From a bacterium (GTDB taxonomy: Bacteria > CSSED10-310 > JAJRTK01), in contig JAJRTK010000306.1 in assembly GCA_024278345.1 (NCBI GenBank), forward strand, positions 1 through 10,338: DNA of 10,338 bases. The letters run 5' to 3'. Position numbers and translations under genes: made by a program. Of the stretch, positions 2,674 to 10,338 are shown in pieces (positions within the stretch are counted from its first letter, which is position 1; each line of letters opens with the position of its first letter). The notes below the pieces were generated by a model. The model was not told where the DNA came from. It made no database searches and saw only the letters and a program-made list of their open reading frames with translations.

Positions 2674-3057
2674 CTTACGTCCAGCTTTTCCATGGCGGAG
2701 GCAGGCTACCGGGGATTAAAGGTTCGAGGAGGAGCGCCAGAATCCTACACATACCCAGAGTCTTGTGCAACTCACGGATAGAAGGCCGGGGGAGGCTGGC
2801 CTGAGAAGACTAGCGCTCGCCCGCGCTATCGGATTTATGATACCGATGAAGTGACTAGAAGTCCGGTACCGCGCTCTTGGTCTCTTTCTGAGAAACGGCA
2901 ATTGAATGATGGGGTTGTGGCAAGTCTATGCACTGGGCTGTCTTGCTCCCGACCATGGGTGGCCGCCGGTATCGGAACGAAAAAAAGGGATGGCGGCCGT
3001 CGAACTGGCAGTTTTCAACTCGCTTTTTCGAGGGCCACCCAAAGGGGGAGGCAAGCA
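2674..3057. other. Divergent intergenic region between oxidoreductase and PilZ genes
   Basis: About 384 nt without a convincing gene separate the two divergent genes and must hold promoters for both. The best -10-like element is TATGAT near 2836-2841, which reads TATCAT on the other strand, but neither has a good -35 partner. Short imperfect inverted repeats occur, including AGCGC/GCGCT around 2812-2827. The plus frame stays open back to a GTG at 2851, but that translation has no recognisable domain and no ribosome binding site, so I treat it as untranslated. Confidence 0.45.
3044..3051 (+). promoter_or_regulatory. Shine-Dalgarno sequence selecting the TTG start of the PilZ gene
   Basis: GGGGGAGG lies 6 nt before TTG at 3058. 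No alternative in-frame start upstream has a comparable site, so this decides the start of the tandem PilZ protein. Confidence 0.6.
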
Positions 3058-4500
3058 TTGAACTCCGTTGACTTGTCCAGGAATCGCCGCCGACACCCGC
3101 GTTTGCCGGTCAGCTTGAAAGTGGAATACCGGGCGGCCGGGAAACAGGGGTCCGGGCACATTGTCGATCTGAGCCTGGGGGGGATGTTCCTCCAAGTAGC
3201 CGGGGAGTTTGGGGAAAGCTCCTGGATCGATATTTCGTTCAGAGTCCGCAATGGAGAGGAGCGTCAACCTGTCCAATGTTCGGGCAAGATCTTGAGGGTT
3301 CTTGGTATCCAAGCAGCGTCAAAGTGGGGGCTCTTGCCGGGAATCGCCCTTCAGTTCACCCGCTTCGATCAGGGGTTTGATGCCCTGCGGCAGTACCTCG
3401 GCCAAAGATGTGGCGTTCTCCCTACACTGGCTGATCCACATGAAGCTGCAGGCCCGGGCGAAGGCCCCGCCGTGACTCCCGCCCTGTCCAAGAGCGCCTC
3501 ATCTTCGCCAGACCTTTCTGATGATGCATCCCCCAGGCCGGACAGGGGGATGCCTCGCCTGGCTACCAACAGGAAAGTCCATTACCGCTGTGGTTCCGCG
3601 GGTGGCCATGCCTACACTCTGGATCTCAGTGTTGGAGGCATGTTCCTCCAAGTCGTGCCGGAGCGGCTTCCGGAAAAGTGGCTTCATCTCGACTTTCCCG
3701 TGCGCCTCAAGAGCGCCGAACACCGGATCCGTTGTATCGGCCGGGTGGTCCGTCTGCTGACCTCGGCCGAGGCCAACTCGTATGGGCTCTTGCCTGGCGT
3801 CGCCATTCAGTTCCAGCGATACGAAGCTGGAGAGGCCGAACTTCGAAGCTACCTGGCCGAACGCTTGGGCGTTGCCTTGTCGGATCTGGGAAAACCCGAT
3901 CTGGGGCCGGTTCCCGACGGCGTGCAGGCCAGCGACCGGCTGCCGTCAATGACCGACTCGGGAAGTGAAATGCTTCCCCAAGCTGCAACTGGCCAGCCAA
4001 CCTCTGCTCCAGCCTCTTCTTCGGTCTCCCGCTCCTCCCGGGGGATCAGAGGCCCGGCAACCAAGATACCCACGGCTTCAAGCCGTCAATCTCCACGGCA
4101 GCGGCAATCACGTGAGGTCAGGAAGAAGAGAAAGCGAGTGGCCGAACGCTCGCGGGCAGCCTACCAGTACGCCGGACCCCCTCCAGCATCCCGAAAGGTC
4201 AGCCGTCTCCTAAAACCGGATGAGGTGAAGGGTCTTGACGGGGGGGCTCCTTGGGAGTTGAAAAATGTGGAGGCGGATTGGAACAAGCGGGAATGGGAAA
4301 AGTATTTGGCGCCTTTGGAGCAGGGATCCGGGAAATTCAAGGTCCACGTGGAGGTGCAACCTGCCGAACCACCCACCGGTCGCGATGGCTGGTTGGAATC
4401 GCGGTTAGGCTTTGGTTTCGCTCATTTGGCGAAGCTCGCGGCCCTTGGCGTGGGCGCCGGATTTCTGCTTGCCTATCTCGCGGTGGCGTTTGTCATCTAG
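3058..4500 (+). CDS. Tandem PilZ-domain protein with C-terminal membrane anchor
   Basis: Counted from the TTG, this is a 480-residue protein. PilZ domain 1 spans about 8-118, with RRHPR at 11-15 (RxxxR) and DLSLGG at 37-42. PilZ domain 2 spans about 160-272, with RGMPR at 163-167 and DLSVGG at 189-194. Both copies keep the arginines and the D-x-S-x-G-G motif that bind cyclic di-GMP in this family, and share GGMFLQV and GLLPG(I/V)A(I/L)QF, so they arose by internal duplication. A Ser/Pro/Gln-rich linker follows, then a strongly basic cluster (about 346-364). The last ~24 residues are hydrophobic (LAALGVGAGFLLAYLAVAFVI at the end), so the protein is probably tail-anchored with its sensors in the cytoplasm. 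It should act as a membrane-attached c-di-GMP receptor; the partner is unknown. No cyclase or phosphodiesterase gene is nearby. The longer frame from GTG 2851 is possible but less likely. Confidence 0.85.
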   Translation: MNSVDLSRNRRRHPRLPVSLKVEYRAAGKQGSGHIVDLSLGGMFLQVAGEFGESSWIDISFRVRNGEERQPVQCSGKILRVLGIQAASKWGLLPGIALQFTRFDQGFDALRQYLGQRCGVLPTLADPHEAAGPGEGPAVTPALSKSASSSPDLSDDASPRPDRGMPRLATNRKVHYRCGSAGGHAYTLDLSVGGMFLQVVPERLPEKWLHLDFPVRLKSAEHRIRCIGRVVRLLTSAEANSYGLLPGVAIQFQRYEAGEAELRSYLAERLGVALSDLGKPDLGPVPDGVQASDRLPSMTDSGSEMLPQAATGQPTSAPASSSVSRSSRGIRGPATKIPTASSRQSPRQRQSREVRKKRKRVAERSRAAYQYAGPPPASRKVSRLLKPDEVKGLDGGAPWELKNVEADWNKREWEKYLAPLEQGSGKFKVHVEVQPAEPPTGRDGWLESRLGFGFAHLAKLAALGVGAGFLLAYLAVAFVI

Positions 4501-4598: not shown

Positions 4599-5984
4599 CT
4601 AGGTCTCGCCGGCGGGGCCGGAATCTGGGTCGTGCTCTTCTTTTGGGGCGGAGTTGTCGGAAAACCCTTTGTTTTCTTCGTGTTGCGTTCCGCTCACATC
4701 GGCGGCAGTCCGTCCGCCGCTGTTCGCCTTCATCGCCGCTCTCACTCTCCACTGCCCTAAGGCCGAAGCACCACCGGGATCTGGAGCCACGGCCTCTTCC
4801 AATAGCTGGCTGACAGCATCGTTGGCGAGAATCGCCCGGAGAACTGGCAAGGAGCTTTCGGCCCAAGCCGTTGCCCAGGTTTTGCCATCGATGCCGGCTT
4901 CCTGAAGGTGGCGCCCAAGGCTTTGCGCTCCCTGCTCAGAAAGGAAGGCTCTCACCGTGGCGGCGTGATCGCGGGTCCGAAGCTCTGCCAGGATGTCTTG
5001 GGCCACGCTGTCCGCCAGGCTCTGAGCAGTTTCGAGCTCATGGAGGTCTTCGATCTCCCGCAGAATTCCAGAGACTTCGCGATCCAGGAACTCTCGTAGA
5101 AGATCCAGCCTCAAGTCGGCAAACGCCTGCTGGTTCGCATCCGACAGCGTCAGGTCAACCGCCCGGAGTAGAGCCGCCCCGGTGCAGCGTTGGAGAAAGG
5201 CCTTGAGGTGCGGCTCAAGCTGGCGCTCGAACTCTTCGCGCATCGTCTCCAGAAGCCGGCCTCCAGCCTGGAGCGGGTTGGCGCCAAAGAGACCGATCCG
5301 GCCCAAGGGGCTCTTCTTTAGGAGAGCCGGAAGTCCCCAACTGGAAAAAAATGGGTTGACCGTGACGGAAAAGTCCCGGAGCACCTCGTAGAGCATCGTC
5401 CCCGTGATCTCTTCGAAGACACGATTTTGGGCGACCTCCCGAACCCAGTCGCCCTCTGTCCAAGCGGGGCTCGTCACCAGGTTTTCTAGCAGCTCGACGG
5501 TTTCGTCCGAAAGAAGGGCCCTGACAGTGCGGCGGGAATCCCGCCAGAGCTCCCACTCTTGCTCCAAGGGCTGTTGCAGCAGCTCCCGGAGCCGCGGAAC
5601 GAGGATGTCGGATTCGAGGATGGATCCCAGGGCTGTAGCCCAGGATTCCGGTTCCACGAGATCTTGCAAAGGCCTGTCCAGTAGGGCTAGGAAAGCCGTC
5701 TGAGCCAGGTCGGGGAGGCGCTCTTTCAGGCGTTCCGCCGTGGTGAGGCTCGGGGGCTTCGCTCTGGATGTCCTCCGTTTCCGTGGCCGTCTCTTGGAGG
5801 GCGTCGCTTTTTTCGGGGTCCTAGCCGACTTTTTGGGGGATTTCGCTGCCACGATCTTCTCTTTTCTGGATGGGATTGATGGCTTGTTCATACCCCAGAA
5901 CCGGCCCATGCGCCAACTGGCCATCGCCAGGGAAGGCCTGGGTGTGGTGGCACCCGCTTGTTCAGATCTGGATGCTCGTGTCAT
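4599..5984 (-). CDS. Orphan helical protein with Lys/Arg/Pro-rich N-terminal tail
   Basis: I do not recognise a family. The open frame encodes up to 461 residues. Residues about 46-78 form a tail of repeated K/R, P, S, T and A (AAKSPKKSARTPKKATPSKR), resembling the basic tails of histone-H1-like or AlgP-like bacterial proteins, which could bind nucleic acid or polyphosphate. Residues about 80-400 are rich in Leu, Glu, Arg and Ala and look almost wholly alpha-helical, with no signal peptide or clear membrane helix; a Gly/Pro-rich break (NPFFSSWGLPALLKKSPLG) sits mid-protein. The last ~60 residues are low-complexity, and codons about 419-435 lie inside a dispersed repeat. The start is unresolved: ATGs at 5984, 5924, 5909 and 5891 and a GTG at 5852 are in frame, none with a strong ribosome binding site. 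MNKPSIPS (5891) or GTG 5852 would give a more natural N-terminus. The gene converges with the PilZ gene and diverges from the binding-protein gene. Confidence 0.7.
   Translation of the reverse strand: MTRASRSEQAGATTPRPSLAMASWRMGRFWGMNKPSIPSRKEKIVAAKSPKKSARTPKKATPSKRRPRKRRTSRAKPPSLTTAERLKERLPDLAQTAFLALLDRPLQDLVEPESWATALGSILESDILVPRLRELLQQPLEQEWELWRDSRRTVRALLSDETVELLENLVTSPAWTEGDWVREVAQNRVFEEITGTMLYEVLRDFSVTVNPFFSSWGLPALLKKSPLGRIGLFGANPLQAGGRLLETMREEFERQLEPHLKAFLQRCTGAALLRAVDLTLSDANQQAFADLRLDLLREFLDREVSGILREIEDLHELETAQSLADSVAQDILAELRTRDHAATVRAFLSEQGAQSLGRHLQEAGIDGKTWATAWAESSLPVLRAILANDAVSQLLEEAVAPDPGGASALGQWRVRAAMKANSGGRTAADVSGTQHEENKGFSDNSAPKEEHDPDSGPAGET
4681..4728. repeat. Dispersed hairpin repeat, copy A, inside a coding region
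   Basis: This 48-nt segment aligns without gaps to 8567-8614, with 37 of 48 positions identical by hand count. The first 15 nt (TGTTGCGTTCCGCTC) are identical. Its core is an inverted repeat: CGGCGG (4700-4705), an 8-nt loop, CCGCCG (4714-4719). Similarity to the other locus continues in patches to about 4788: GCCCTA at 4754-4759 and CCACCGGGATCTGGAGCC at 4771-4788. It lies in the 3' end of the orphan gene on the opposite strand and adds codons to it. Confidence 0.7.
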
Positions 5985-8298: not shown

Positions 8299-8566
8299 AG
8301 GTCCAGAACTTTCGCCGTTCTTGTCGCGAGGTGGTTTACGCTTGAGCTGGCGGATAATATCAATCTGTTGGGCAGGACACAACAATTCCCTTTCGTTTCC
8401 GTGCATCGTGAAGGGAAGCCGCGAGGATACCTGATCCATCAGCCCCGCTTCGGAGTTGGCCGGTTGGCTTTCTTCGATCAGCTCCCCGGGCCGGTCTGAG
8501 GCTTCGGTCTGGTGGCCTTGCGTGACCGTTCTTGAAGGTTGTCCACGGACTGCGCTGCCTGCTTTT

Positions 8567-8614
8567 TGTTGCGTTCCGCTCCCATCGGGCGTCGGCCGAC
8601 GCCCGCTACTCGCC
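8567..8614. repeat. Dispersed hairpin repeat, copy B, intergenic
   Basis: This is the gap-free partner of 4681-4728. The core 8586-8605 is a perfect 20-nt inverted repeat (CGGGCGTCGGCCGACGCCCG), longer than the copy A stem but in exactly the same aligned position. Two stem pairs are swapped between copies: C4703-G4716 against G8589-C8602, and G4704-C4715 against C8590-G8601. Pairing is kept in both. Confidence 0.75.
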
Positions 8615-8638
8615 ATTCTCCCCCTCTTGTCACCTTGC

Positions 8639-10051: not shown

Positions 10052-10338
10052 GAGTCCCCCAATCCGGCGGGCCGTCCTCCGGCAAACGAGAGAGGTAAAT
10101 TCCACTTTTCCGCGGGGAGCTCCCCGTAAAGCGGCGATGAACCCCGAAATTCCGCGCGCCGCGAAATCTCGGCGACGGGGCCCGCGGTTCTTGACGCGAC
10201 CAAGAGCAGGGACCTATCAGATCCGGTTGACAAGTCCACGCACGAAAGGAACCCACCGTTCAATTCCGTGAATCCCGTCCAGCCCGCCACCGGCAAGATG
10301 CCGGTGCCACCAGGGCGGCACCGCGGAGTGTAAAGCAA
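10052..10338. other. Upstream region of the membrane-protein operon
   Basis: This region should hold the promoter of the pair of genes ending at 8741, though no clear -35/-10 pair stands out. A minus-strand frame is open across it from the window edge, but its translation begins inside a known kind of repeat and shows no domain, so I do not call a gene. Confidence 0.4.
10281..10323. repeat. GC-rich hairpin repeat (reads GTGILPV on the minus strand)
   Basis: Two overlapping inverted repeats share a middle arm. CACCGGCA (10288-10295), loop AGA, then TGCCGGTG (10299-10306) gives an 8-bp stem. CGGTGCC (10302-10308), an 8-nt loop, then GGCACCG (10317-10323) gives a competing 7-bp stem. On the minus strand the core GGCACCGGCATCTTGCCGGT translates as GTGILPV, a phrase I recognise from spurious ORFs over repeats in many bacterial genomes. 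No U-tract follows, so it does not look like a terminator. Confidence 0.6.

Follow-up and report, generated by a model that had tools for sequence, protein, structure and literature searches.

An abundant REP-like hairpin repeat with solo and IS1-type MITE copies in a CSSED10-310 bacterium

Two copies of a hairpin repeat in the window

The window analyzed here was a 10,338-nt stretch of DNA, contig C232 of a 6.06-Mb assembly that consisted of 550 contigs and was 87.9% complete. A PilZ protein was encoded at 2851-4500; it contained two PilZ domains (3158-3368 and 3614-3824), an apparent internal duplication with a spacing of 456 nt. The neighboring minus-strand open reading frame (ORF) at 4599-5984 had no Pfam match. 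A hairpin-containing repeat was found near the 3' end of this ORF (copy 1) and again about 3.9 kb away (copy 2).

The two copies were noticed in a first-pass annotation, which aligned segments 4681-4728 and 8567-8614. Recomputing the ungapped alignment reproduced its 37 identities in 48 positions, with nearly identical flanks (21 of 22 on the left and 9 of 11 on the right) around a divergent center (7 of 15). No other pair of 48-nt segments in the window matched as well, and eight block shuffles yielded 29 to 31 identities; as a 62-nt repeat at 73%, the pair also headed the direct-repeat families found there. Folding and alignment indicated that the centers paired at the same aligned place. 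In copy 1, the hairpin spanned 4700-4719 (minus strand), and its arms CGGCGG and CCGCCG lay at 4700-4705 and 4714-4719; in copy 2, the hairpin was a perfect 20-nt palindrome, CGGGCGTCGGCCGACGCCCG, at 8586-8605 (minus strand) that was preceded by GTAG. The swapped base pairs that had been described, C-G for G-C and G-C for C-G, were present in the stems. The segments themselves were therefore real, but their boundaries were too narrow: the first was the middle of a 148-bp unit, and the second was part of a unit of about 70 nt.

The 148-bp unit of copy 1 was a complete MITE at 4628-4775 (plus strand), whose ends and core offset (54) recurred in about 26 further copies within 0.96 Mb of the assembly. 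Its left terminal inverted repeat (TIR), GGTCGTGCTCTTCTTTTGGGGC at 4628-4649 (plus strand), followed a genome-wide TIR pattern. The right TIR, GGTGGTGCTTCGGCCTTAGGGC at 4754-4775 (minus strand), was identical to the left end at 14 of 22 positions and resembled the end of a resident IS1-like insertion sequence (IS). The unit was bordered on the plus strand by the target-site duplicates ggaatctg (4620-4627) and gggatctg (4776-4783), which matched at 7 of 8 positions. Within it, covariance model R1 identified a core at 4665-4736 (minus strand, 77.9 bits) that comprised the hairpin, a conserved 3' flank, and an A-rich tail. When the unit and one duplicate (156 nt) were removed, the ORF at 4599-5984 stayed open and ended in APDSGPAGET at the same stop codon; thus, the insertion lengthened the gene by 52 in-frame codons close to its 3' end, and copy 1 shows how a MITE can extend a reading frame.

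Copy 2, at 8551-8622 (minus strand), was recognized by the same model (78.4 bits) as a solo core that lacked MITE ends. When its flanks were compared to the MITE, the z scores were -0.1 on the left and 1.7 on the right, which was within the spread of the controls.

Family architecture and distribution

Flank statistics were derived from 0.96 Mb of the 6.06-Mb assembly, mostly contigs that were chosen for holding copies. Copies with a T-rich upstream stretch had flanks that aligned far outside the hairpin, and this alignment defined a unit that ended in GGTCGTGCTCTTCTTTTAGGGC and, inverted, GGTGGTGCTCCAGCCCTAGGGC, with the core starting at offset 54. The unit was 148 bp long, or about 172 bp with a long hairpin variant, and its 22-nt terminal inverted repeats were imperfect. 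Clear 8-bp direct repeats flanked several units (GGAATCCT, GATCTTCT, CAGATTCG, CAAAGTCG, GAGATTCT, and GAAAGAGG), and several others had no recognizable target duplication. Matched flanks scored 6.56, compared to 4.68 ± 0.23 for shuffled pairings, with a maximum of 5.33 in 200 shuffles (n = 26). By every test available, this family is a MITE; the first-pass annotation had missed that copy 1 is part of such an element, of the IS1 type, complete with inverted repeats and target duplications of 8 bp.

Like copy 2, 63 of the 126 copies with enough flank had no MITE end that was recognizable in a loose test. The mean z scores of these solo flanks against the MITE were 0.37 and 0.45, compared to 0.42 for a reversed-consensus control, with a handful of exceptions. 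The best-conserved part of the solo copies ran from the T-rich tract to CTCGCC, although the core positions were partly ascertained by the search itself. Target duplications at the solo cores were not significant (11 of 200 shuffles scored as high), and a within-genome comparison found no empty sites for these cores.

Read on the strand opposite to that on which the repeat was found, the core was about 65 to 70 nt long and, in an alignment of 55 copies, consisted of GGCGA, a foot, a variable GC-rich hairpin closed by a C-G pair, CGATGGGAGCGGAACGCAAC, and an A-rich tail. The feet included GTAG, GCAG, GTGG, GGAG, ACAG, and others; 41 of 104 copies with a readable foot had GTAG or GTGG, 27 more had GCAG, and the rest were degenerate. 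The REP-like description fits the core because copy 2, which has no MITE ends and is about 70 nt long, resembles a REP. The conserved flank of the core also holds an ATG (ATGGGAGCGGAACGCAAC), and at a few sites (L065:1312, L068:623, and L092:9482) the gene caller started the downstream gene in or right beside a core.

To examine the stem, we used eight stem pairs in 55 diverse copies. The stem cells were paired in 86.1% of cases, compared to 68.9 ± 1.4% in shuffles, which ignore relatedness, and at most 54% in slid versions, which keep it. Cells that had changed on both sides numbered 66 (20.3 ± 3.3 in shuffles), and the covariation score was 0.419 (0.151 in shuffles). In a short-stem subtype, tandem G-A/A-G oppositions occupied the stem center in the alignment. 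These results bore out the earlier proposal of a copied element in which compensatory changes preserve a folded hairpin, and they indicated that pairing within the hairpin persists despite turnover of its sequence.

The turnover was most apparent between closely related MITEs. In pairs with a flank identity greater than 0.85 (mean, 0.885), identity reached 0.975 in the left core flank but only 0.646 in the hairpin. The flanks of the window MITE and the MITE at L072:8506 were 94% identical, but one had a hairpin of 19 nt and the other a hairpin of 43 nt. Point changes under selection would not by themselves swap loops wholesale, and candidate routes are exchange, template switching, and recombination. 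One form of this idea is that the hairpin is an exchangeable cassette whose stem-loop is replaced at resident copies by a hairpin-processing enzyme or by replication template switching. Such replacement would leave MITEs with nearly identical flanks carrying wholly different, fully paired hairpins, but we regard the cassette as improbable.

The family was very large. With up to three mismatches, the 20-nt flank GTTGCGTTCCGCTCNCATCG had 624 matches in the 6.06-Mb genome, compared to 1 for a reversed control, and the opposite-strand form of the flank had 567 matches, compared to 0. There are about 570 to 620 copies of this mobile repeat in the genome, and both window segments are among them. Its 13-mers were the most frequent of all 13-mers in the 0.96 Mb, and the element is the most abundant repeat of its genome. 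A covariance-model search, the check that had been suggested for the two-copy hairpin, gave 165 matches across the 0.96 Mb at an E-value cutoff of 1. Further copies thus existed by the hundreds, and they kept the central pairing; the first-pass annotation had named a lack of either as grounds for dropping its claim. Many contigs ended in or near MITE copies (for example, contig ends C14, C45, C59, C143, C182, C511, and C546 lay inside or beside such copies), so the assembly breaks on copies and the youngest ones are probably undercounted.

Based on our own gene caller, which called about 80% of the DNA coding, 118 of 126 copies were intergenic, MITE and solo copies alike. Divergent, convergent, and codirectional gaps were used in proportion to their length, and gene ends were not preferred. 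In codirectional gaps, the core strand ran along the downstream gene in 36 cases and against it in 19, a slight excess. A role as transcription terminator was rejected, as neither convergent gaps nor gene ends were favored. Inverted pairs of the REPIN/BIME type were not characteristic of the family, as only 4 neighboring pairs within 300 bp occurred among the 126 copies, and 2 of these were inverted.

In the other genomes compared, the repeat was essentially absent. None of 59 other genomes, the nearest of which belonged to the same phylum, matched the covariance model; seven other genomes of the phylum yielded only stray flank matches with two or three mismatches; and no element was found in viral contigs. 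An Rfam search of the window returned no match.

The IS1-type parent IS and the RAYT gene

The TIR pattern of the MITE had 186 matches in the genome, compared to 28 for a control, and some of these lay in elements without a core. Exact matches occurred at both ends of one multicopy IS, on whose copies contigs break. Its right end adjoined sequence for an IS1 transposase (PF03400) at C548 (26.4 bits) and C58 (21.2 bits), and a 209-bp deletion derivative at C474 joined both IS ends and contained the C terminus of the transposase. The transposase of the parent IS was seen in the assembly only as fragments, with contigs breaking in the copies, and no intact gene was seen. The ends of IS1-family elements begin with GGT, and their target duplicates are 8 to 10 bp long. 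The GGT ends and 8-bp duplicates of the MITE fit this family. Two other families were considered as parents because they can also give 8-bp duplicates. An ISL3 transposase (PF01610) was present, but no MITE-like end was found by the gene, and an IS1595 transposase (PF12762) was present, but its copies ended in a different repeat. At L057:340-540, another abundant repeat appeared to be inserted in the ISL3 transposase gene.

The first-pass annotation had likened the element to REP sequences mobilized by RAYT transposases and had proposed a search for a RAYT gene. The search of the assembly (88% complete) turned up a single such gene, at C390:22510-23235 (L055:2510-3238; NF047646, E = 1.4e-18), and its product had a tyrosine region at the C terminus as well as a HuH motif (HVH) and the sequence WQRGFYDH. 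The RAYT stop codon was overlapped by a diverged core that scored 31.1 bits (E = 1.7e-6 in 4.4 kb and 3.8e-4 in 0.96 Mb), and no core was nearer than 1.2 kb on the 5' side. Overlap of a REP with the 3' end of a RAYT gene has precedents (PMC3733652). Because cores occur about every 6 kb, in gaps between genes, the probability of a chance overlap was estimated at a few to about ten percent.

Between the HuH and tyrosine regions, the RAYT gene also held two hairpins in frame, GTAGGGGCGGGTTCCGAACCCGCC, and these occurred nowhere else in the genome. A REP in this position is known for TnpA-REP subclass 2.4 (PMC6006769). Given this other REP (hairpin GTAGGGGCGGG), the RAYT may be a newcomer that brought a REP of its own. 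The REP-like shape, the genome-wide spread, and the mostly intergenic location thus held up, but mobilization by the RAYT did not follow: the single RAYT gene had a diverged core at its stop codon and a different REP hairpin inside, and the foot of the core was only a degenerate GTAG. The link of the repeat to the RAYT is weak, and the REP-like core is a candidate member of the GTAG REP/RAYT system. Sequences similar to another dispersed repeat of the window (10206-10240) were found near the RAYT locus, on both sides.

Origin of the two forms and known counterparts

We consider it quite probable that the repeat is a two-layer family with a REP-like core, in which some cores sit in an IS1-type MITE moved in trans, copy 2 is solo, and the paired hairpin turns over. 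The inner layer is the REP-like core, a singlet of about 65 to 70 nt. The outer layer is the 148- to 172-bp MITE with 22-nt imperfect inverted repeats, inside which some cores, including that of copy 1, lie. The MITE inserts with 8-bp duplications, and the enzyme that mobilizes it in trans would be the IS1-family transposase of the IS that shares its ends; the MITE ends, the duplications, the sharing of ends, and the transposase family were observed directly, and from them we infer the mobilization in trans. IS1-type transposition of the MITE form is the only mechanism documented by the sequence itself. For the solo cores, the likeliest route of spread would be copying as a single-stranded hairpin by a TnpA-REP/RAYT-type enzyme, for which the genome's single RAYT is the candidate.

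A simpler proposal is a plain REP family in which the RAYT at C390 moves all copies as single-stranded hairpins. The REP-like hairpin, its GTAG-like foot, the high copy number, and the mostly intergenic location are as this proposal would have them, and the one RAYT gene has the conserved HuH (HVH), WQ, and tyrosine regions and a core that overlaps its 3' end, as REPs do elsewhere (PMC3733652). We nevertheless place it on the unlikely side, as it explains neither the inverted repeats nor the 8-bp duplications found at MITE copies, and as the REP inside the RAYT gene is another one that has not been amplified; in addition, the foot is degenerate and dimers are few. Conversely, all copies may once have been IS1-type MITEs, and the solo cores may be old ones whose outer parts decayed while selection kept the core. 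The whole core is indeed common to both forms, a handful of "solo" copies keep clear right-flank similarity (best z scores of 5 and more), and small REP-like copies of QMITE2 have been described as truncated MITEs (PMC5896051). This history is doubtful, however, given that most solo flanks do not exceed the level of the reversed-consensus control, yet the cores, which were partly ascertained by the search, match nearly perfectly.

It is also conceivable, but very improbable, that the hairpin is a conserved, nonmobile RNA or DNA element with a host function, such as a terminator, a leader, or a protein-binding site. Strong covariation, a strictly conserved flank, and the slight orientation excess toward the downstream gene (36 versus 19) would suit such a function. 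Set against them are the hundreds of copies, the use of gaps by length without a preference for gene ends, the lack of an Rfam match, the target duplications of the MITE form, and the near absence from the seven other genomes of the phylum.

The closest precedent for the two-layer family is QMITE2 of Coxiella burnetii, a MITE of 150 to 190 bp with TIRs of 17 to 31 nt, duplicates of mostly 7 to 9 nt, and a GTAG REP inside, which occurs as full-size and small REP-like copies and has extended a gene in frame at its C-terminal end (PMC5896051). The family described here shares the REP-containing MITE, the TIRs, the duplicates, the small copies, and the C-terminal extension, but it differs in its parent IS, which is identified as IS1-like, in having about eight times more copies (roughly 570 to 620 versus 78), and in its degenerate foot and widely varying hairpin sequence. 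GTAG REPs and REPtrons are similar in their high copy number, intergenic location, and alternative complementary stem residues and, for part of the copies, in a GTAG/GYRG-type foot (PMC3733652, PMC6006769, and PMC8266576), and in REPtrons, too, a copy overlaps the 3' end of the RAYT gene. In contrast to GTAG REPs, the core is followed on its 3' side by a long stretch of conserved sequence (about 18 nt and the A-rich tail), forms few dimers, and is embedded in MITEs, and the RAYT is only a candidate cognate. GTAG families composed mostly of singlets are known. The likeness to the IS1 family lies in the DDE transposase (PF03400), the GGT ends, and the 8-bp target duplicates; the element here encodes nothing, however, and its parent IS was seen only in pieces.

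The mobile element is therefore real and very abundant; its kind is largely known, and its hairpins are unusually variable. New features are the copy number, the identification of the parent IS, and the wholesale hairpin differences between nearly identical MITEs. REP-like hairpins are here tied to a DDE (IS1-type) MITE with an identified parent IS, in a lineage without a close relative among the compared genomes. The hundreds of hairpins with the same flank also provide a dense natural data set on how palindromes stay paired during sequence turnover, for which selection by a hairpin-binding transposase and template-switch correction are candidate causes.

Two other repeats were located near the right end of the window. 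The dispersed repeat at 10206-10240 reads GGGACCTATCA...GGTTGACAAG, and 22 copies of its GGGACCTATCA motif were present in the 0.96 Mb. A further palindromic repeat, CCGGCAAGATGCCGGTGCCACC at 10290-10313, had about 14 copies in the same 0.96 Mb.
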